Shown: one piece after another, positions 27,396-38,212 of the stretch
Layout: each line of letters starts with the position of its first letter
How positions within the stretch are numbered: position 1 is the first letter of the stretch
Assembly (NCBI GenBank): GCA_021794075.1
Contig: JAJYRM010000028.1
Coordinates: forward strand, 1-38,212
Length of the DNA: 38,212 nucleotides
Direction of reading: 5' to 3'
Source: Bacteroidota bacterium
GTDB lineage: Bacteria; Bacteroidota; Ignavibacteria; Kryptoniales; JAKASW01
The notes under the pieces: model-generated
Seen by the model: the letters and a program-made list of their open reading frames with translations, nothing else
What the model was told of the DNA's origin: nothing
Databases searched by the model: none
Position numbers and translations under genes: made by a program

Positions 27396-28904
27396 TCAGA
27401 CAGCCATTCCACTCGATGCCATGCCACTCCAAATATTATTCAGGTTACTTTGGGTCTGGCCTAGTTGAATCAGCGTCGACTCGTACGCGGAATATTGTTG
27501 CTGCATGGCATTTGCCTGAAGATTAATACTCTGCTGCATCGAAGTTATCATGTTGTTCATCGAAGTCACCTGATCCTGGGCGCCGTTGATCTTCTGATCC
27601 ATGACACCACCAGGATTAGTAAACTGTTGAAGCGCTGTATTAAGCTGAGTCGCGACGCCAGAGGATGAATTAAAAAGAGCTACGACAGCGCTAGGATTGG
27701 ACGTCAGGGCGCTGTTGAGTTTCGACTGATCGCTTATGGAAAGCGTACCGTCGTTGTTCAACGTGATCCCGATCGCGCTAAGCGTGTTAGGACCGCCGCT
27801 GACGGCCGAGCTAACCTGTCCCATCACAATATTCTCCAGCGACATCTGGAGATTCATTATGCTGACGTCTCCTGCAAGCGGACCTCTCGTGACGGTCTGG
27901 TTACCAGAGGAATCGGTCGATGTCGTATCGGTAACGTCCGTATTCAGAGTCGATATGACGCTGTTATACTTGCTTATGAATGTATTCAGCGTCGTTTGGA
28001 TAGCGCTCGTATCGGGACCGACAGTTAGCGTGACAGGATTTGCCGTCGACTGCTGCGATCCTGCCAGATTGAGCGTTACGCCGGTCAAGACATTCGAGAC
28101 TGTGTTCGAACTACTGACGATAGGTATACCGTCAAGCGTGAAATTCGCGTCGAGGGTACTTGTCGAGCTATTGACGTACCCAGCGCTTGTAGACGTAGAT
28201 GCGGTGCGCGAACTTATTACGCTACTCGTCCACCCGACATTTTGCAGCAACGTGCCTGTTACATCGGCGACGCTTATGGCATTCGTTGAGCCGGTATTTG
28301 TGCTCTGAAATACAAGCCTGGACGTCGTGGATGTATCGTTGACGACCGATGCGGTAACTCCAGCGCCGGCTGAATTGACCGCATTCGCTATGTTGGTCAA
28401 CACCGTCGAGTTTGTGTCTCCCGCCGCAACGTTGACATTAACGTTCGTCGCTTTTCCATCGACGGTTATAGAAAACGTGAAAGCCCCCGCTCCGGTCGCT
28501 GTCGAGATACTTGTCCCCGATTGTGTAAGTTCGTTCGATACGAGCGTGTCGCTCTTCGCAAGCTGGGAAACAAATACCGAGTGTGTCCCAGCTGTAGCCG
28601 TTGGCTGCGCCGTAGCAGTCACGACTGAGCTGTCGGAAGAAGTCGCGGTCTGCACGGCAAGCGGAGATAGCGTCCCGACCTGAGACAAATTGTTGGCCTG
28701 TGTCTGCAGGTTGGAAAGGGTGCTTTTCAGAGTCTGGTAGATCGAGATTGTCGAATTAATGGAAGCGACTTCCGCCTGCATATTGTAGACGGGTGTGCTA
28801 ATGGACTGGACGTAAGCCTGGACGAGCTGGTCAACGACCGAGGAGGTCGAAGAATTCGTGCTCAAAGTGGGAGCGGAAGAAAGGCTCGATATCGAAGAAG
28901 ACAC
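27396..28904 (-). CDS. fliD: Flagellar filament cap protein FliD
   Basis: Cap at the tip of the filament under which flagellin subunits fold. The 502 residues show the FliD layout: an N-terminal FliD_N region (about 15-110, VVDQLVQAYVQSISTPVYNM), a Ser/Thr/Val-rich middle (about 110-290) and a C-terminal region (about 295-480) with SKYNSVISTLN, GPLAGDVSIMNLQ, IGITLNNDGTLSISDQSKLN and the final coiled coil (ITSMQQSINLQANAMQQQYSAYESTLIQLGQTQ). The start is GTG at 28904, supported by GGGAGGT just upstream. fliS lies 16 bases upstream. Confidence 0.93.
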   Translation of the reverse strand: MSSSISSLSSAPTLSTNSSTSSVVDQLVQAYVQSISTPVYNMQAEVASINSTISIYQTLKSTLSNLQTQANNLSQVGTLSPLAVQTATSSDSSVVTATAQPTATAGTHSVFVSQLAKSDTLVSNELTQSGTSISTATGAGAFTFSITVDGKATNVNVNVAAGDTNSTVLTNIANAVNSAGAGVTASVVNDTSTTSRLVFQSTNTGSTNAISVADVTGTLLQNVGWTSSVISSRTASTSTSAGYVNSSTSTLDANFTLDGIPIVSSSNTVSNVLTGVTLNLAGSQQSTANPVTLTVGPDTSAIQTTLNTFISKYNSVISTLNTDVTDTTSTDSSGNQTVTRGPLAGDVSIMNLQMSLENIVMGQVSSAVSGGPNTLSAIGITLNNDGTLSISDQSKLNSALTSNPSAVVALFNSSSGVATQLNTALQQFTNPGGVMDQKINGAQDQVTSMNNMITSMQQSINLQANAMQQQYSAYESTLIQLGQTQSNLNNIWSGMASSGMAV

Positions 28905-28920
28905 GACTACCTCCCGTTTC

Positions 28921-29244
28921 TCACGACAATTTGAAAGCCTGTGCCCATGCGGAACGGAGTTGGCCGACTACCTTCGCGACCTCATCGAAATTCCCTTTTT
29001 GGGCCTGATTCTGGCAATATCTATAAAGTTTGAAAAAGCCGAGCGATACCTCGCGGTAATCGAAATTGAGCGCGGCTATCAATTGAGTCAGGCCAGCGCT
29101 GACGTTGTCGTAATTCCTGGCCTTTGAATTAACAATAACAAAATCATAAACCTTGAGTATAAGTTGCACCGGGCTCAAGCTCATTATTTCATTCTGCTTA
29201 TAATGCTTGAAAGCCGTCTTGGGTTTGTAGGATATAGTCTCCAT
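28921..29244 (-). CDS. fliS: Flagellin export chaperone FliS
   Basis: Small helical chaperone that binds the flagellin C-terminus and keeps it unfolded before export. The first helix carries the typical YKQNEIMSLSPVQLILKVYDFVI (about 16-38), followed by ARNYDNVSAGLTQLIAAL and FFKLYRYCQNQAQKG. From the chosen ATG at 29244 it has 107 residues; this start has GGTGAGG just upstream, while the earlier ATG at 29265 has no ribosome-binding site. A hairpin terminator lies between it and fliC, so expression after fliC may be partial read-through. Confidence 0.9.
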   Translation of the reverse strand: METISYKPKTAFKHYKQNEIMSLSPVQLILKVYDFVIVNSKARNYDNVSAGLTQLIAALNFDYREVSLGFFKLYRYCQNQAQKGNFDEVAKVVGQLRSAWAQAFKLS

Positions 29245-29304
29245 TGCCTCACCTTGACTTCGCATTCAGTTCATGTAATCAGTTGTGCGGAAATAAAAGG
29301 GAGA

Positions 29305-29331
29305 CCCGTCCAAGGTTTACCCTTGGACGGG
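29305..29331 (-). terminator. Hairpin after the flagellin gene
   Basis: CCCGTCCAAGG (29305-29315) and CCTTGGACGGG (29321-29331) form a perfect 11-bp stem with a 5-nt loop. On the minus strand it begins about 15 bases after the fliC stop and is followed by TCTCCCTTTTA, a modest U-rich run. It probably gives partial termination, so that fliC is made in excess over fliS and fliD. Confidence 0.85.
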
Positions 29332-29345
29332 CTTCCGCAAGCCGA

Positions 29346-30173
29346 TTACGGGAACAGTTTCAGAATGCCGCCCGGTTGTGCGTTCGCCTGAGCCAACTGC
29401 ACTGTAGCGGTTTGTTCCAGTATCTGGAGCTGAGTCGCCTGGACTTGAACCTGAGCGATGTTGGCGTCCATTATCTGGCTCGCCGCCGCCTGCGTGTTGG
29501 TGATTGACGTCTGCAGAACCTGCTGCTTGAAGCTGAGCCGGGACTCGAGAGACCCGACATACTGCAATTGCGAAGTGACCGTATTGATGGCACTGTCGAC
29601 GCTGCTTAGAGCGTTCGCGATGTTCGCCGTGGTCAGTCCTGTGAGACCGAGAGCGGACGAATCAACCGAAGTTGACAACGAGACCGACAAAGTATCACCA
29701 GTATCGGCACCGACCTGGAATGTCTTGCCGGTGAACACGTTGTTGAGAAGCTGCTGACCGTTGAACTTGGTCTGCGAGATGGTTTGGTCAATTTCACTCA
29801 TGTAGTCGTTGACCTGGGTGACTATGGCGCCAAGTTCCGAAGAACCCAGACCCGCGTTACCCGCCTCCGTCACGAGCGTCTTGACGTTTACCAGAATGTT
29901 GTTGATGGCCTGAAGACCGCCTTCAGCGGTAGAGAGAACGCTTTGCGCGTCGCCAACGTTCGTCAATGCCTGGCTCAATCCCGCAGCCCTTGCATTCAGC
30001 TTCGTGCCGATGGTGTATCCGGCCGGATCAACGCCGACGCTGTTGATACGCTTGCCGGTAGCCAACTGCAGTTCAGCCTGGTTGAGCTGCTGGTTGATGT
30101 TGTCCAACGCATTGTAGGCGTTCTGCGCGCCGATGTTTGTCGCAATGCGGAACCCCGATGTGAAATCGGACAT
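29346..30173 (-). CDS. fliC: Flagellin (short, D0/D1 only)
   Basis: Filament subunit of 275 residues. The N-terminal coiled-coil region (about 10-140, AYNALDNINQQLNQAELQLA, TGKRINSVGVDPAGY) and C-terminal region (about 190-275, VGSLESRLSFKQQVLQTSIT, MDANIAQVQVQATQLQILEQ) are both present, joined by only about 50 residues, so the exposed variable domain is almost absent. Such minimal flagellins are known in several phyla. The ATG at 30173 is preceded by GGAGG, 9 bases away. A sigma-28 promoter lies about 220 bases upstream and the leader between them is highly structured. The neighbouring family 2 glycosyltransferase may modify it. Confidence 0.95.
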   Translation of the reverse strand: MSDFTSGFRIATNIGAQNAYNALDNINQQLNQAELQLATGKRINSVGVDPAGYTIGTKLNARAAGLSQALTNVGDAQSVLSTAEGGLQAINNILVNVKTLVTEAGNAGLGSSELGAIVTQVNDYMSEIDQTISQTKFNGQQLLNNVFTGKTFQVGADTGDTLSVSLSTSVDSSALGLTGLTTANIANALSSVDSAINTVTSQLQYVGSLESRLSFKQQVLQTSITNTQAAASQIMDANIAQVQVQATQLQILEQTATVQLAQANAQPGGILKLFP

Positions 30174-30388
30174 GGTGCTATACCTCCATGTTATTGTTTT
30201 GAGCGACGTCCATGCCGCTCGTTGGAATCCGCAGGCCCTTTTCCATCGGACTTACGTCCGACCGGATGTGTGCAGGACCTCCGGTTAGAGGAGTTATCAA
30301 TTCAAGGCGGTCCGGCGGCTCTCCTCTCGCCGCCGCTCCCGCGAGCTGAAGCCTTGAAGGCTTTTTCCGGCTCACGAGCGTGCCTTAA
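30174..30388 (-). ncRNA. Structured 5' leader RNA of the flagellin mRNA (candidate cis-regulator)
   Basis: From the inferred start of transcription near 30388 to the fliC ATG are about 215 nt with many stems (transcript sense): AAGCC/GGCUU around UUCAA (about 30350-30364); GCUC-GCGG-GAGC (about 30336-30347); CGGCGGC/GCCGCCG (30313-30319 with 30329-30335); UCGGAC-GUAA-GUCCGA (30246-30261), which has a GNRA-type tetraloop; and GAGCGGC/GUCGCUC around AUGGAC (30201-30220), just before the ribosome-binding site. A longer-range pairing GCCUUCAA/UUGAAGGC-type (30351-30358 with 30301-30308) excludes the first stem, so two alternative folds exist. It resembles no riboswitch I can name. A 65-codon GTG frame (30178-30375) also crosses it and is not believed. 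Confidence 0.5.
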
Positions 30389-30393
30389 CAATA

Positions 30394-30420
30394 GTATCGG
30401 ATGTCACCTCTGGAACTTTA
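30394..30420 (-). promoter_or_regulatory. Sigma-28 (FliA) promoter of fliC
   Basis: On the minus strand: TAAA (30417-30420), a spacer of exactly 15 bases, then TCCGATAC (30394-30401), which matches 6 of 8 positions of the enterobacterial sigma-28 consensus TAAA-N15-GCCGATAA. Its position upstream of a flagellin gene, and the FlgM-like gene in the same cluster, support it. Confidence 0.85.
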
Positions 30421-30469
30421 GAAGTTTTTCACATGAATCAAACATCAAAGCGACACTATCGAGACGGTT

Positions 30470-31459
30470 TCAGATGCGGAGTAGCTCTTTACAGGCCTTG
30501 ATGAGGTGTTCAAGCTGAATATCCAAGCGCAGATTCCCCCCTCCATTTTCTCGGATCCGGAGAAGCATTTGGTAACCTTCAGTAATTTCGTTCATCGAAA
30601 GGAGGCCGACCGCTGCCACGTACATTGCTATACCGTTTGTGGGATTGTAATCGAGACACCGGTTTGCGTAACTGATCGCGTTATCGTTCTCATTGCTTTC
30701 CAGCGCCAGCTGTGACATTTTCATGAACAGCCTTTCGAGTATAGCGCTCCCCATTCCGACGTAGTCAAGGCCGAGCACCTTCTTCATTTCCGCGTACGCT
30801 TCTTCCTTCCTTCCCATGCTCATCAAGGTCACGCCGGTTTGGTAATGAAGGTACGGATCGTTTTCTGAACGAGACAGCGCTCTTCGCAAAATCTCAAGAT
30901 TCCTCGCGCCCCTGTCCACAGCCCCCTGAACGAGTTTCCTTGAATAGCCATGATGCAGAATTACGAGGTCGGATCGCTCGATCTTTCCACCGCTCTTCTC
31001 TATGCTTCCCCTGATTTGCTCGTGGACCGGCATTTGGTACCTGTACGCACTGCGGTTTCTGAACAGCCTTACTATCCCCATGTCTTCGTACTTCAGCACG
31101 TCCGTCTCCGGCATCTCGCTCCGAACAATAATCTCAACTCCGTCAGCGCGTGAAGCCTTGACAAGACCTCGAATCTTTTCTCTTGATTTTTCACTAAGTT
31201 CCTCATCCGCATCGAGGACGAGAATCCAGTCTCCGACCGCCGACTCCAGAGCGACATTCCTCGCCGAGGAAAAGTCGTTGTCCCAAGCGTGAGTCACAAT
31301 TTTAGCCCCATGACTGCTCGCGATTTCGACAGTCGAGTCCGTTGAACCTGTATCGACGACAATCACCTCGTCGGCTACTCCGTTCACGCTTTTCAGGCAA
31401 GCATCAAGATATTGAGCTTCATTCCTGACTATCATGCAAAGCGATATACCAGTAGGCAT
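30470..31459 (-). CDS. Family 2 glycosyltransferase with TPR-like C-terminus
   Basis: The 329-residue product has a GT2-type nucleotide-sugar domain (about 1-180): ISLCMIVRNEAQYLDACLKS at the start, VVDTGSTDST, ARNVALESAVGDWILVLDAD with the metal-binding D-x-D (LDADEEL) at about 83-88, and HHGY near 171. The C-terminal half (about 185-329) is helical with TPR-like units (YLHYQTGVTLMSMGRKEEAY, NDNAISYANRCLDYNPTNGIA). Glycosyltransferases with TPRs commonly modify proteins, and this one lies directly behind the flagellin promoter, so flagellin glycosylation is a good guess but only that. The start has GGAAGGA upstream. It is the last gene of the sensor/receiver cluster (45-base gap). Confidence 0.88.
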   Translation of the reverse strand: MPTGISLCMIVRNEAQYLDACLKSVNGVADEVIVVDTGSTDSTVEIASSHGAKIVTHAWDNDFSSARNVALESAVGDWILVLDADEELSEKSREKIRGLVKASRADGVEIIVRSEMPETDVLKYEDMGIVRLFRNRSAYRYQMPVHEQIRGSIEKSGGKIERSDLVILHHGYSRKLVQGAVDRGARNLEILRRALSRSENDPYLHYQTGVTLMSMGRKEEAYAEMKKVLGLDYVGMGSAILERLFMKMSQLALESNENDNAISYANRCLDYNPTNGIAMYVAAVGLLSMNEITEGYQMLLRIRENGGGNLRLDIQLEHLIKACKELLRI

Positions 31460-31504
31460 CCGAATTGTCCTTCCATTGTTCCGGCAAAATCCCCGCCGCC
31501 GGTA

Positions 31505-32623
31505 TTACTTCGGCTTGAATTTGTTGATCGAATCAACTTCGAGAGGTCGAAGCGTAATGTGGTCCACTCCCTCGGATTTTTCCTCGCCTTCCCGGTTGGT
31601 AAGGAGCACCGTCGTGCATTGTGGCTGAGCCTTTTTGAGCTGGCTGCAAAGCTCTCTTCCGTTTATCGATGGCAAACTCAGGTCGATGAAGGCAACTGCG
31701 AACCTTTCCGCGTCGAAGAGCTTCGCAGCTTCGACAGCATCGCCGGCGACTTTAAGTCGCGAAAACACTCGCAGAAGGTTCTGCGACTCCTCCTCGACCA
31801 GTTTCTTGTCATCCTCCACGAGAAGCGCCGTGAGTACGCCGGTTTCCGCCCCCTCCACCGGCTTCGATTCGATGATTTCCAAAGTCATCATGTTGAGATG
31901 GACATCAGCTTCCACCGTATAGCCAAGCTTTTCGATTTTTCCTACAAGCGCTCTTATGCTCGCGCTTCCTTCTATCTTATCCTCATCTACCGCCTCGCCA
32001 TCGGCTCCCGTGATCCTGAGCCCCACACGTTTACCTTTCCCCTCCGCGGCATCGCCAGGACCAGGCGTAGATGTGGTCATAAGCACGTCGCACTCCTTCA
32101 ATCCGGAAACGAGTACCACGTTTGAAAGAAGGTCACGGAGAATGTCGAATGTCGCCTGATCGGTTCTGATCTCGGCGAGCGACGAAGTCTCGAAGCCCTT
32201 TATCCTGATCGGCATATTCCCCGCGCCGCTGTCAGACTGGTTCATTAGGGCGCTCCTGACCGCCTCGAAGAGTTCATCCTGGCTCTTTGAAGAACCATCG
32301 AGGTCCATCGACATCTCTTTTGCCGCGGCGGCCAGATGAAGACGGATCTCCTGAAGTATTTTCTCTTCCCCCTGAACGAAAGAGAGGCGCGAGAGAACGT
32401 TGTCGATGGCTATCCTCGCGTTCCTCAGTGAAACAGGTACCCTTTCGATCGATTCCCTGAGAATCGCCTGTTCTTCCTTCGCCCGCTCCAGTTTGGAGTT
32501 CAAGAGGGCGGTCTCGGCCTGAAGCGCCGGGAGTTTCATCGTGAATATACTTTTGATCTTGTCGACCGACAATTCAACCATGGTGCGCGATAAACGATCG
32601 CTTGAGCACTTCACGGACATCAC
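31505..32623 (-). CDS. Degenerate histidine-kinase-like protein with C-terminal receiver domain (probable 3' part of a split hybrid gene)
   Basis: As translated from GTG at 32623, 372 residues. Residues 1-30 look like the end of a GAF domain; 30-105 are helical, like a dimerisation region but without the H-box His; 155-253 resemble an ATPase domain that has lost its motifs (an N-box-like ATFDILRDLLSNVV remains, but no DxGxG or GxGL). A receiver domain covers 262-372: EDD (270-272), phosphorylatable Asp314 in FIDLSLP, Thr342, and Arg359 where Lys is normal. The reading frame continues unbroken upstream for 17 codons (none a standard start) to the TAA that ends the giant sensor gene, so this is probably the 3' part of that gene. 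If separate, starts at GTG 32623, ATG 32620 or ATG 32581 are possible; none has a good ribosome-binding site. Confidence 0.7.
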   Translation of the reverse strand: MMSVKCSSDRLSRTMVELSVDKIKSIFTMKLPALQAETALLNSKLERAKEEQAILRESIERVPVSLRNARIAIDNVLSRLSFVQGEEKILQEIRLHLAAAAKEMSMDLDGSSKSQDELFEAVRSALMNQSDSGAGNMPIRIKGFETSSLAEIRTDQATFDILRDLLSNVVLVSGLKECDVLMTTSTPGPGDAAEGKGKRVGLRITGADGEAVDEDKIEGSASIRALVGKIEKLGYTVEADVHLNMMTLEIIESKPVEGAETGVLTALLVEDDKKLVEEESQNLLRVFSRLKVAGDAVEAAKLFDAERFAVAFIDLSLPSINGRELCSQLKKAQPQCTTVLLTNREGEEKSEGVDHITLRPLEVDSINKFKPK

Positions 32624-32674
32624 GCCGAGCCCGATGTTCGCGAAATCGATCTCGTAGATTCCCGAACCCGGGCC

Positions 32675-35600
32675 TTAATTATCGATTAGTTCCATCGGAG
32701 GGATTCTCTCTGCCCCGCGGTTCTCAGGGGTAAGGGCCACGGATGACTCCTTCATCTTCGTCGACAAAGATTCCGCGAGTACCTTGACGACGGCCTCAGG
32801 AGTTCCAGCCGTCGAGAGTCTCGTCATGAACTCGCTCATGACCTTCGAGTTCTCCACGAGCTGCACAGAAATTCTAGTTTGTTCCTGGGAACCTTTCCTA
32901 CCTTCGAGCATGTCCAGCGACACCGATGTTACCGCGTTCAACTCTGAAATTGACGGCGAAACTCCTATGAATCTAAACAAGAGAGCAAGACCCTGCCGCC
33001 TCGACTTGACCGCGTAGTAAATTCCTTCGCCCCCCCTCATTTCTGCCGACTCAAGCTGATTCGCTGGCAATAGTGAACCGAACTTCGTCGCAGGGACGGA
33101 CAAATCTTTCGGGAGATTCCCGTTGGAAATTACAAGCGACATCGCGGTACCCTCGATGGAGTAAACTCCTACCGACTCAGCCGCAAAGACCTGGCGGAGG
33201 AGGTCAGTCACTCTTCTGGAGTATTCTTCGAACGAACCCTCTCCCATCCCGGTCAACCCCACCATGGCACGCGTCACTTTTCCGCTCTCCTCGAATCTCC
33301 GCTCCGCGGAAATCCTGGCGTGAAGCCCCGCGGCCACCGAAGATGCCGCTTTCAGGACCGGAGCGAGCTCATCGAGGTAATTGGCCTGAATGCCGGATGA
33401 AGGGAAAGCGATGGAAGCGAATCCGAGGACGTCCCCGACCGCCGTGCTTTGCAGAAGGAGCCTCGAATCTCCCGACGAAAGGACATTCATGAAAGTGGAA
33501 TCCGGTATCTCTATTCCGGATAAAGACCCTCCGTGCCTGGCCGCGATCGCATCGCTCTCTGTGAGGCTGAGAGACAGAGACGGCTCTATTCTTCCCGAAG
33601 CTGTAGTCATTAAGAAGACGTCGGCGGTTCCGCGGGAAGTTTGCAGCGTACCCGTTCCTATTACTTTCGCGCCTGCAAACGCGTCCGCCGCAAGGAAGTC
33701 GCTTACGCCTTTAAGTATCCCTTCGAATTTATCGGCGGTGGGAAGGTCCCTCACGATAACATTCCGCCGCTTCAATTTCTCTATCTCCGCGCGCTGGCTG
33801 ATTTCCTGGTTGACCGGCCTGAACCGGTACACATGAGAATTCCCTACCGGGATGTTCTCGACCTTATAAAAGCGGCCGTTCAGCTCGCCGGTGTCATCCG
33901 GGCGAGCTATTCCAACGCCAGCAAGCACCTTCGCGGGGTCGACGCTCTCATCGAGCCTTATCGCCAGCTTGTTCCTCGCCGCGACGTTGGCGGCACGGAC
34001 AATTCCCATCTCCAGGATGAAGACCGGATCATCGGCAAATGATTCCAATAAATTGCTCAACAGACCCTGCGCCCCACGGAGCTGCTGCTTCAGCAACTCC
34101 TGTTCGGTGATGTCCTCCAGGAAAAGGAATGTCGTGTCTTCCATGACCGAAGCACTGACATTCAAGTATTTTCTGTCCGTGGCGCGGCACATGCGCATCA
34201 CGATCGCGCCGGAACGGAGTTCAGATTTGAAGCCCTCTGGAGATTCGCCTAGATATCTGAGGAACCCGTCGAAGCTCCTGTCCGAAGAAAGAAATTCCTT
34301 GAAGAGGCTTTCGAACATGTCGTTCCACCGGGAAAGTTTTCCTCCGTTCACGGCGGCTGTCGGGAGGAAACTGTTGAAGAGTCTCCCCGACTCCAACGTC
34401 GACTTCCTAAGCTCTTCCTCAATTTTCTTGAATTCCGAAACTTCCCGGAAGAGGTAGAAGCCCTTCCCGTGGATATCCCAGTGGGCCACAGAAAACGCCC
34501 TCCCTCTCTTGTCAACCAGTTCGGAAACGCCCTCTCCCAGCCCCGGCGCGGCGAGCCCATTCGACGAGAGGAATTCCCCGAACAATTCGCCTTCACTTGT
34601 TTCAAGTGTTTCCTGTAGAGAGCGACTGAAGAAAGCGACGCGACCCTCCGAAACCATCATGGCCGGCACAGCGGCATTTCTTACCAGATCCTCCGAAAAG
34701 GACTTCGCTTCGTGCACGGCTTTCTGCAAAGACTCGTTGTCGGAACGGAGGGCGTCAATGGTCCGTCCAAGTTCACCTCTGAGTTCGATATCGGAAGTAT
34801 CATCCACGAGGTACACTGCCGATCGGCCGCGGCCGCCGTCAGGATTTTTTCTGGTCACGACATATGTCTTGAAGTGTCTCCCTGAAATAACAACGGATGT
34901 CGAGCGACTTTCTCCGGCGGCGACCCCCACAAAAAGCTCGACGAATTCCTGTCTCGCCTTTTCATCTACGAGCGAAGAGAACGATTGCCCTTCAGGCTTC
35001 AAGTCAGGTTCGGCAAGACGCCTGAGAGCAGTGTTAACTTCCACAATGATCCCATGCTCATCCAGCACCGCGGCTGGAAACGCCATTTCGTTGAAAAGAT
35101 TGAGATGCGAACTCTCTTTCTCGGTTAGTTCCCCTTTCAGCTTAACCAGCTGTTCATCAAATCCAGTCTCCAGCGATTTAAGCCTGCCTTTGATCGCCGA
35201 GAGTTGAGAATCCGCTTTCAGTAGGAATACAAAACGGCTTAGGCCCTCTCGGAGTGTCGGGGGTTTTTGATGCAGAAGGAGCAAGAGCGCCTTCTCCGCG
35301 GAGTCGGTCTTCAGCGAAGACGTCGCAACGAGTTCAACTCCAAGTTCCCGCTGCAACTTCCTCAACGCCGCCGATGTAGTCATATCCCCGAGAAGTTGAA
35401 AGATGTCATCGTACTCGGCAAACGCCGCTTCGAACGCTCTCTTCCGGCCGTCGGTGAGAGGGATCTTGTTGGGTGACAACCTAATCCCCGCTTTTCTGAT
35501 GAGACTCGCGGTCTGTTCCGGATTGGCTACGGAATATCTGGTCAATGCCGCTGTTTCTCCAGAACGATTGAACAGAAACGCGTCGCAGTCAAACGCTTTC

Positions 35601-35752
35601 CCGGCGGCTGACACGATCAGCGCGTCGGCAGAGTCGAGCTTCTCTGCAAATATTATATCCGATAGAGCGGCGAAGAAAGATTCCTGAAATCTGGCATAAT
35701 GATTTTCCAGCTCTACCGGCTCGGTGGATTTACTCTTTTTCAGATTGAGCAT
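32675..35752 (-). CDS. Giant PAS/GAF sensor protein (probable 5' part of a split hybrid gene)
   Basis: The 1025-residue soluble sensor has no membrane segments and no kinase domain. By eye: N-terminal GAF-like region (about 25-165), coiled linker (185-218), PAS (about 218-325, FPAAVLDEHGIIVEVNTALR), coiled segment, PAS (350-440), PAS (455-552, ending FLFLEDITEQE), PAS (562-650), GAF-like (665-815), GAF (825-950), and the opening of a further GAF (965-1025, RLSTAGTPEAVVKVLAESLS) that is cut by TAA at 32675-32677. The missing rest of that GAF is found in the same frame just after the stop (GIYEIDFANIGLGVMSV). So the whole may be a 1415-residue hybrid ending in a receiver. It lies 73 bases downstream of a complete histidine kinase. 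Confidence 0.8.
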   Translation of the reverse strand: MLNLKKSKSTEPVELENHYARFQESFFAALSDIIFAEKLDSADALIVSAAGKAFDCDAFLFNRSGETAALTRYSVANPEQTASLIRKAGIRLSPNKIPLTDGRKRAFEAAFAEYDDIFQLLGDMTTSAALRKLQRELGVELVATSSLKTDSAEKALLLLLHQKPPTLREGLSRFVFLLKADSQLSAIKGRLKSLETGFDEQLVKLKGELTEKESSHLNLFNEMAFPAAVLDEHGIIVEVNTALRRLAEPDLKPEGQSFSSLVDEKARQEFVELFVGVAAGESRSTSVVISGRHFKTYVVTRKNPDGGRGRSAVYLVDDTSDIELRGELGRTIDALRSDNESLQKAVHEAKSFSEDLVRNAAVPAMMVSEGRVAFFSRSLQETLETSEGELFGEFLSSNGLAAPGLGEGVSELVDKRGRAFSVAHWDIHGKGFYLFREVSEFKKIEEELRKSTLESGRLFNSFLPTAAVNGGKLSRWNDMFESLFKEFLSSDRSFDGFLRYLGESPEGFKSELRSGAIVMRMCRATDRKYLNVSASVMEDTTFLFLEDITEQELLKQQLRGAQGLLSNLLESFADDPVFILEMGIVRAANVAARNKLAIRLDESVDPAKVLAGVGIARPDDTGELNGRFYKVENIPVGNSHVYRFRPVNQEISQRAEIEKLKRRNVIVRDLPTADKFEGILKGVSDFLAADAFAGAKVIGTGTLQTSRGTADVFLMTTASGRIEPSLSLSLTESDAIAARHGGSLSGIEIPDSTFMNVLSSGDSRLLLQSTAVGDVLGFASIAFPSSGIQANYLDELAPVLKAASSVAAGLHARISAERRFEESGKVTRAMVGLTGMGEGSFEEYSRRVTDLLRQVFAAESVGVYSIEGTAMSLVISNGNLPKDLSVPATKFGSLLPANQLESAEMRGGEGIYYAVKSRRQGLALLFRFIGVSPSISELNAVTSVSLDMLEGRKGSQEQTRISVQLVENSKVMSEFMTRLSTAGTPEAVVKVLAESLSTKMKESSVALTPENRGAERIPPMELIDN

Positions 35753-35825
35753 AATGCTTCGGATTGATGATTGGTGACGGGAACAATCGCATCACTTCAA
35801 AATGGAAAGGGATTTTCTCCCTTTC

Positions 35826-37463
35826 TCATTGCCTCGGGAGCGTGAAGTAAAATGTCGAGCCTTTGCCTTTGCCTGCCGATTCGACCCAGACGGTTCCACC
35901 GCTAAGTTCGACGATCTTCTTAACAAAAGACAGGCCCAAACCGCTCCCCTCAACTTTTTCGGTGTCGCTCGTCTTCACTCTCTGGAAGATCGCGAAAATT
36001 CTGTCGTGGAATTCCTGCGAAATGCCGATCCCGTTGTCCCGGACGTAGAAGAGATAATGATCGATTTTGTCGTGGACTCCTATCGTCAGCTGCGGACTTG
36101 GCTGATCACCCATGTATTTGATGGCATTGTCGACGAGATTCACGAAAATTCGTTCAACATATCGCGCTACAACGTAAAGCGTCGGGAATGTCCCTTCAAG
36201 AGAGACTTTGACCTTCTTCTCGGCTAGTCTGATCGACATGTCGGTCAAAACGCGTTCGATGAGAGGCGTCATGTCTGTCTCTTCCGGTACGGCCTCGACG
36301 CTTCCGACTCTAGCGAGGTCCAGGAGGTCGTTTACGAGCGAGTGCAGACGCGCGGAAGACGTCATGATAGCGTCGATAAGAACGTCCTGTTCGACTTCAA
36401 GCCGACCGCTTCTCTTGAGTTCTCTCGCGAATCCTTCGATGACGAGTATCGGAGATTTCAGATCATGGGTGATGGCGTAAGTGAACTGCTGCAACTCGCG
36501 GTTCTTGCTTTCGAGCAGCCTGGTCTTCTGGATAGTTTCCTCGTGAAGTCTCGAGTTCTCGATGGCGGCCCCGATCACCGTGCCTATCCCTTCTATTATC
36601 TCGCGCTGCGCGTCCTCAAGCACGCGATCCGATTCGCTGAATAATGCGCCCACCCCGACAGCTTTTCCTTTAGCCTTCAAGGGAAAAACGACAAGCGAGG
36701 CAAAAGGTGATCTCCGCATCGAGCGCGGCATCAATGCCTGGTTTTCGTTCCGGCCTATGGACTGCACGGCATCCGACTTTAAAACTTTCCCGAACACGTT
36801 TGATGTTATTTCCGAACCGTGGACCTCTGAAAGGAAATCCTCGCTAAGGTTCGCGCTAGCCGCCACAAATATTCTGCGGCCAACTTTGTCCGGAAGAAGT
36901 ATGGCTCCTGCGTCTCCGGTAAAAATATCCATCGTTTGCTTTACAGAAAACTCCAGTACCTCCCTGAAGTCGATCGTCCGGTTCAGGAGCGTGGCGATGC
37001 GATTGATCGCGCTTAGCTGAAGGTTTCTCTGAGTGAGCGTCTCCTCCAGTCGTCGTCGGTTCGTCACGTCGATAAGTATGCCGAGCGTGCCGGCAAGAAC
37101 GTTGTCTTCTCCGAAGAACGGCGAGGTAGATATTTGAATGTAGTACTCTTTGCCGTCCGGCCTTCTTAGCAGGAATTCCTTCGAGTCGATAGGCCTTTCG
37201 GTAGTAATGGTCTGGTTAAATGGAAGGTTCGGCGACGCAACGGGCCGCTTCGTGTTCGGGTCACACACCCCGCTTAGGAGAGCCGCGGAGTTCTTGCGGA
37301 GATTCAGCTCTCTGTCGACGCCAAATATTTCCTCCGCAGCCCTGTTCATCCCAACTATTTCCCCAAAGCGGTTGGTAACAATCATACCCTCTCCGATACC
37401 TTCAAATAGTCTCAGAAGATCCTCGGAGATAACCACGCCGTTATTTCTTACATCCACGCCCAT
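35826..37463 (-). CDS. Cytoplasmic PAS-GAF sensor histidine kinase
   Basis: Complete sensor kinase of 545 residues from the ATG at 37463 (a TTG one codon earlier is possible). Domains: PAS (about 15-137, FEGIGEGMIVTNRFGEIVGM), GAF (about 150-302), HisKA (about 320-388, phospho-acceptor His333 in AITHDLKSPIL), and HATPase_c (about 430-545: N-box FVNLVDNAIKY with Asn446, G1 DNGIGI at about 476, G2 GSGLGLSFVKKI at about 507). There is no membrane segment. The neighbouring sensor and receiver genes lack a functional kinase, so this protein may phosphorylate their receiver domain; this is inference. The gene diverges from tRNA-Ala, 227 bases away. Confidence 0.93.
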   Translation of the reverse strand: MGVDVRNNGVVISEDLLRLFEGIGEGMIVTNRFGEIVGMNRAAEEIFGVDRELNLRKNSAALLSGVCDPNTKRPVASPNLPFNQTITTERPIDSKEFLLRRPDGKEYYIQISTSPFFGEDNVLAGTLGILIDVTNRRRLEETLTQRNLQLSAINRIATLLNRTIDFREVLEFSVKQTMDIFTGDAGAILLPDKVGRRIFVAASANLSEDFLSEVHGSEITSNVFGKVLKSDAVQSIGRNENQALMPRSMRRSPFASLVVFPLKAKGKAVGVGALFSESDRVLEDAQREIIEGIGTVIGAAIENSRLHEETIQKTRLLESKNRELQQFTYAITHDLKSPILVIEGFARELKRSGRLEVEQDVLIDAIMTSSARLHSLVNDLLDLARVGSVEAVPEETDMTPLIERVLTDMSIRLAEKKVKVSLEGTFPTLYVVARYVERIFVNLVDNAIKYMGDQPSPQLTIGVHDKIDHYLFYVRDNGIGISQEFHDRIFAIFQRVKTSDTEKVEGSGLGLSFVKKIVELSGGTVWVESAGKGKGSTFYFTLPRQ

Positions 37464-37625
37464 CAAGTTGCGATTTATTCAAGGTGTTTCAAGTTAAACC
37501 CCGACCACTTTACTTACAAACGTGTGTCCCATGGATGTTTACCATGATCGGAAGTTCATTGACATCCGTCTTCTTTTCCGCAGAAAACTTGAGTAACCAG
37601 GCACCTAAGGGAACCGGAGGCATCC

Positions 37626-37654
37626 TTGCACCTAAGCGCAGAAGAATCTATATT
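37626..37654 (+). promoter_or_regulatory. Sigma-70-type promoter of tRNA-Ala
   Basis: TTGCAC (37626-37631), a 17-base spacer, then TATATT (37649-37654). Transcription would start near 37661, about 30 bases before the mature tRNA. Close to the vegetative consensus. A direct repeat GCACCTAAG overlaps the -35 region (37600-37608 and 37629-37637). Confidence 0.65.
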
Positions 37655-37690
37655 ATCACGTCCCGATCGGCGGGATTCTTTGATAAATCC

Positions 37691-37763
37691 GGGGCTGTAG
37701 CTCAGCTGGGAGAGCGCGTGAATGGCATTCACGAGGTCGAGGGTTCGATCCCCTTCAGCTCCA
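37691..37763 (+). tRNA. tRNA-Ala (anticodon GGC)
   Basis: A full cloverleaf can be drawn: acceptor GGGGCTG with CAGCTCC (one G-U pair), D-arm GTAGCTCAGCTGGGAGAGC, anticodon stem CGTGA/TCACG with loop ATGGCAT (anticodon GGC), T-arm GAGGG-TTCGATC-CCCTT, discriminator A at 37763. The next bases are CTA, so the CCA end is not encoded and must be added by the nucleotidyltransferase. Confidence 0.97.
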
Positions 37764-38212
37764 CTAAATCCCCAACGTTTTACTTCACTCCGTTAATCCG
37801 TTCGAAAATCCACTGAACGTTTTACTGAACGTTCTTGGGAGGAGTAGCTTCTTAATCCTAGCAACTCCGAAGTCAATCTTGTAGAAACCCACTAGACGCC
37901 CGCCCATCAGGCCGTACAGGCCGCTCTAGGCTGCGTAGGGTTTCCGATATAGTTATCTGATATGATAGTACGTTTGATGGGTTCATGTCTCGATCAAATT
38001 TATTCGCCGTACTTTGGCGATTCAAGTAAAACTCGATTCTTAATTCGTAATCGTCGAAATTAGCCTAAATTCCCACAAAAAATTAAAAATCACGCAAAAT
38101 CGCAAAATACCCTCTTATATATTTCTTTTATCTTATCTACTTATTAGTTGTCTATTTATTCTTAATTTTTAATTTTTCTGCGAAAATAGCTCATTTAGGC
38201 CGATTTCGAATT
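37764..38212. other. Gene-free stretch after tRNA-Ala, becoming AT-rich
   Basis: No believable gene in about 450 bases. It holds a tandem ACTGAACGTT pair (37812-37821, 37824-37833), and a possible long hairpin built from GAAACCC/GGGTTTC (37884-37890 with 37938-37944) and CTAGA/TCTAG (37892-37896 with 37925-37929). From about 38030 the GC content falls well below that of the rest of the window, and this part contains the inverted repeat at 38055-38208. The 3' side of a tRNA gene is a common integration site, so foreign DNA may begin here. Confidence 0.5.
38055..38208. repeat. Imperfect inverted repeat at the AT-rich right edge
   Basis: CGAAATTAGCCTAAAT (38055-38070) is matched at 14 of 16 positions by the complement of 38193-38208 (ATTTAGGCCGATTTCG). 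Further in, AAAAATTAAAAAT (about 38079-38091) is matched by the complement near 38165-38178. The arms enclose about 75 bases of very AT-rich DNA. Candidate end of a mobile element or a small hairpin element; the window stops 4 bases later. Confidence 0.5.

Follow-up and report, generated by a model that had tools for sequence, protein, structure and literature searches.

Two adjacent open reading frames on the minus strand of a Bacteroidota contig raise the question of whether they are two genes or one and, if one, what the stop codon between them represents. The window analysed here comprises positions 1–38,212 of contig JAJYRM010000028.1 (assembly GCA_021794075.1; 38,212 nucleotides). An ORF begins with ATG at 35752, runs for 1025 sense codons and ends with TAA at 32677–32675; past this TAA the same frame is open for 389 more codons, to a terminal TAA at 31507–31505. 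A first, sequence-only reading had described the frame as continuing beyond its stop at 32675–32677 into an ORF that bears a receiver, with no ATG, GTG or TTG among the 17 codons that link the two. Both points hold in the nucleotide sequence: codons 1027–1043 (GPGSGIYEIDFANIGLG) contain none of the three, and the earliest start candidates past the TAA are GTG 1044 and ATG 1045. The features are as follows.

35826–37466, minus strand: separate histidine kinase (PAS, GAF, HisKA, HATPase_c), a conserved neighbour (Pfam, synteny)
32678–35752, minus strand: gene, first part (1025 codons), sensor region with PAS (ORF, Pfam, orthologue identity)
32675–32677, minus strand: private in-frame TAA, codon 1026 (a sense codon in 11 of 11 aligned relatives)
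32628–32674, minus strand: 47-nt stem-loop, 18 pairs, −23.4 kcal/mol (folding; noticed after the fact)
32624–32674, minus strand: 17 start-less linking codons, 1027–1043 (coding statistics and alignment to relatives)
31505–32674, minus strand: gene, second part (389 codons), a region with no domain assignment followed by the C-terminal receiver (PF00072, E = 5.5e-10)
30470–31459, minus strand: family 2 glycosyltransferase with TPR, downstream conserved neighbour (Pfam, synteny)

The same reading had suggested computing codon statistics for the linking codons, and these proved to be coding-like. Their mean log-odds exceeds that of 97.7% of 17-codon windows from this genome's long frames, and among random open frames a score this high is rare (0.8%).

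Using the read-through protein as query, we searched 61 genomes for relatives. A single unbroken ORF with no internal stop was found in nine genomes of the same genus (G001, G002, G003, G005, G006, G007, G009, G010 and G012), with a length of about 1410–1420 codons and 44–77% identity over nearly the whole length. For the first part of the gene, orthologues are 33–76% identical, and two deeper relatives, G004 and G011, share 34–35% identity with this part. Among the genomes searched, the internal stop is present only in the window's own. All 11 aligned relatives have a sense codon at its position and the alignments run straight through: GAT, GAC, GAA, GGA or AAA in the same genus (Asp or Glu, also Lys and Gly), and CAA and GTG in the two deep relatives. 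The site is a variable, fast-evolving loop. Of the overlapping windows along the gene, those around the stop rank in the top 5% for divergence, which fits an ordinary variable loop, and clustered local change at the stop was rejected. Inserted or duplicated sequence was rejected as well, the only genome copies of the stop-region motif being two 14-mers with one mismatch each.

All 11 loci share the order histidine kinase, sensor gene, TPR glycosyltransferase. Flagellin and FliS come next in ten of them, and the stretch compared in G007 ends before that point. Neighbouring proteins tested in the window align with those of the nearest relatives over nearly full length. The possibility of two natural genes was rejected, because relatives carry a single ORF and the second part has neither a conserved start nor a conserved ribosome-binding site. 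The proposal of a single gene broken by one stop was thus borne out by the homologue alignment that the sequence-only reading had called for, with nine uninterrupted, syntenic orthologues carrying a sense codon at the place of the stop. A gene caller would annotate two proteins here, compared with one across the genus, which is mainly a caution.

Regarding the identity of the protein, Pfam matches in the orthologues comprise a PAS fold and, at the C terminus, a receiver. The receiver (Response_reg, PF00072, E = 5.5e-10) lies at residues 284–365 of the second part and is found in ten of ten orthologues. D1314, D1315 and D1357 are invariant across orthologues, giving the phospho-acceptor Asp expected of a receiver protein. 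Receivers usually have a conserved Lys-Pro; at residue 1402 of the read-through protein (window 31547–31549, minus strand) an Arg-Pro is invariant in all ten orthologues, and this receiver may be atypical because Arg-Pro replaces the usual pair. The gene had been described as a hybrid kinase, a description that found no support: Pfam scans of this protein and of ten orthologues detected neither HisKA nor HATPase_c, although a very divergent ATPase-like region could escape such a scan, and hhalign, run against a profile of the family of the neighbouring kinase, revealed no hidden kinase or GAF. The placement of the stop inside a GAF domain fared little better, since around residues 970–1070 there is no GAF match by Pfam or against the GAF-bearing neighbour kinase; it is still a plausible guess. 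An AlphaFold model from two sequences had a mean pLDDT of 38.6, too poor to judge the fold. Judged by its domain content, the protein is a PAS-containing sensor with a C-terminal receiver, and the hybrid-kinase label is not supported.

The neighbouring kinase is a complete PAS-GAF-HisKA-HATPase protein without a receiver. Pfam names for the other window neighbours are FliT-like (weak), FliD, FliS, flagellin and family 2 glycosyltransferase. The sensor gene and the kinase gene thus lie beside the TPR glycosyltransferase, flagellin, FliS and FliD (window 27396–37466, minus strand), an arrangement found genus-wide. Because the adjoining kinase is complete yet has no receiver of its own, it plausibly phosphorylates the receiver of the sensor protein.

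We calculated dN/dS (Nei-Gojobori) for the window against its two nearest relatives, separately before and after the stop. The values are 0.104 and 0.101 before it, and 0.088 and 0.105 after it; the two relatives compared with each other give 0.133 and 0.112 before and after the site. In the pairs that include the window, dS exceeds 1, which makes the estimates rough. Within that precision, the comparison with the two nearest relatives gave no sign of relaxed selection in the tail. A decayed pseudogene was rejected, as dN/dS after the stop equals that before it. Equal purifying selection on both sides leaves three possibilities: a break of very recent origin, one that is tolerated, or an error in the consensus. 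This upholds the earlier argument that the kept frame points to a very recent or tolerated break.

One-piece orthologues, a private stop and equal constraint on both sides of it are what any explanation has to accommodate. The explanation we favour, with modest confidence, is one gene carrying a single private nonsense substitution, very recent and located in a tolerant, fast-evolving loop. The intact protein, a sensor with PAS and a receiver at its C terminus, would probably be partnered by the neighbouring histidine kinase. The substitution would be real in the cells, would truncate the protein to 1025 residues with loss of the receiver, and would be a population variant that is not fixed. 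Within bacterial populations, in-frame stops are frequent and transient (PMC7918605), and a very recent nonsense variant agrees with this. As with the in-frame nonsense codons of that study, there is a single stop, with the frame and purifying selection kept after it; unlike that set, in which stops are shared by two or more species, the stop here is private to one genome. If it is real, a nonsense variant has been caught before any decay.

The chief competitor, which we regard as possible but on the doubtful side, is a consensus error, in which one base of the assembly is incorrect and the codon in the cells is a sense codon. Assembly errors often create internal stops, above all where coverage is low, and they account for many internal-stop pseudogenes (PMC11017572). 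The single internal stop with intact near relatives resembles such spurious pseudogenes, and equal dN/dS on either side of the stop fits. The stop also lies beside a GGC and a strong inverted repeat, the latter forming a stem-loop that begins on the first base past the TAA and ends 4 bases before the GTG-ATG at 1044–1045. This is the gene's most stable 47-base window; 12 of 12,000 windows drawn at random from the genome, and none of 5000 synonymous resamples, reach its stability, figures that are overstated because the window length was fitted after the stem was seen. Inverted repeats and GGC raise Illumina errors according to Nakamura et al., as cited in PMC4787001, a paper that itself doubts the folding explanation of such errors. 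None of the relatives has this stem-loop. Chance could account for it, or it could flag a site where sequencing tends to go wrong; an effect on translation is the least likely of the three.

Against a consensus error, we surveyed 841 kb (~19% of the genome) for split frames, using coding statistics on both sides of the stop and at least 6 start-less codons. No second convincing split frame was found in this portion, by a survey that is insensitive and limited to start-less same-frame breaks, and the highest linking-codon score was that of the case described here. Other larger candidates were judged, by eye only and not against relatives, to be ordinary gene ends. Since no other convincing split frame was seen in the 841 kb, stops are not scattered through the assembly; unlike for the pseudogenes of PMC11017572, there is no sign that they are over-represented in the portion surveyed. 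A reassigned TAA was rejected, as TAA is a normal stop here, ending 127 of 441 long frames sampled.

A third explanation, which we consider improbable, is a fixed, tolerated truncation, with the lineage using a short form that lacks the receiver. Two deeper relatives have natural short forms: in G011 (L031) the middle of the tail, between the site and the receiver, is missing and the receiver is kept, while G004 (L032) ends ~49 residues past the stop position and has no receiver. The tail of the gene can therefore vary. However, the stop here precedes the last conserved stretch retained by G004, and the tail of the window's gene is still under full constraint, so that a loss of use, if there is one, would be too recent to have left a trace.

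Programmed read-through of the TAA, or a restart at GTG/ATG 1044–1045, giving a short protein and a tail, is very unlikely. The stem-loop, with its 18 pairs abutting the stop, is in its favour, as is the G that follows the stop, which lowers termination accuracy in E. coli (PMC11126739). However, the stem-loop was noticed after the fact, and neither it nor the stop is present in any relative, so that the context is not conserved. TAA is moreover the stop least read through in E. coli reporters, with means of 0.01–0.05% (PMC11126739). GTG 1044 and ATG 1045 are not conserved among relatives, and no purine-rich ribosome-binding site (AGGA, GGAG or GAGG) lies upstream of either; as a benchmark, these motifs occur at the first ATG of 122 of 378 sampled ORFs, compared with a background of 9%. 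In bacterial selenocysteine genes a stem-loop lies directly after the UGA codon, reminiscent of the one abutting the stop here, but the codon here is TAA, relatives mostly have Asp or Glu at the site and the stem-loop is not conserved. With a private stop, the tightest of the stop codons and a downstream start without a ribosome-binding site, programmed read-through or restart is unsupported. Thus, of the origins that the sequence-only reading had listed, recent mutation or error is supported by the private stop and equal dN/dS, and beyond the stem-loop nothing points to programmed read-through or re-initiation. That the TAA and stem-loop form a newly evolved stop-and-restart or read-through element, by which one gene yields a sensor lacking the receiver and, separately, the receiver tail, is an idea to which we give hardly any credence; read-through, if it were demonstrated, would be unusual for a UAA codon in a chromosomal gene of a bacterium. 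Overall, the interrupted gene is an ordinary case with a small question over the stem-loop.

The only other same-species contig is C61 (L021; 4935 bases), in the G012 bin, which is 99.86% identical over 4852 bases to window 32913–37764 and ends at 32913, which leaves it 236 bases short of the TAA. Three of its 7 differences from the window in these 4852 bases are at 32933–33036, near the contig end. G012's own orthologue, on a different contig, is 77% identical, and the presence of C61 in this bin is likely to reflect cross-species contamination. A tRNA-Ala (ggc) is encoded at window 37691–37764 (plus strand), and the C61 similarity stops exactly at the tRNA 3′ end, a pattern like that of an island or variable junction.
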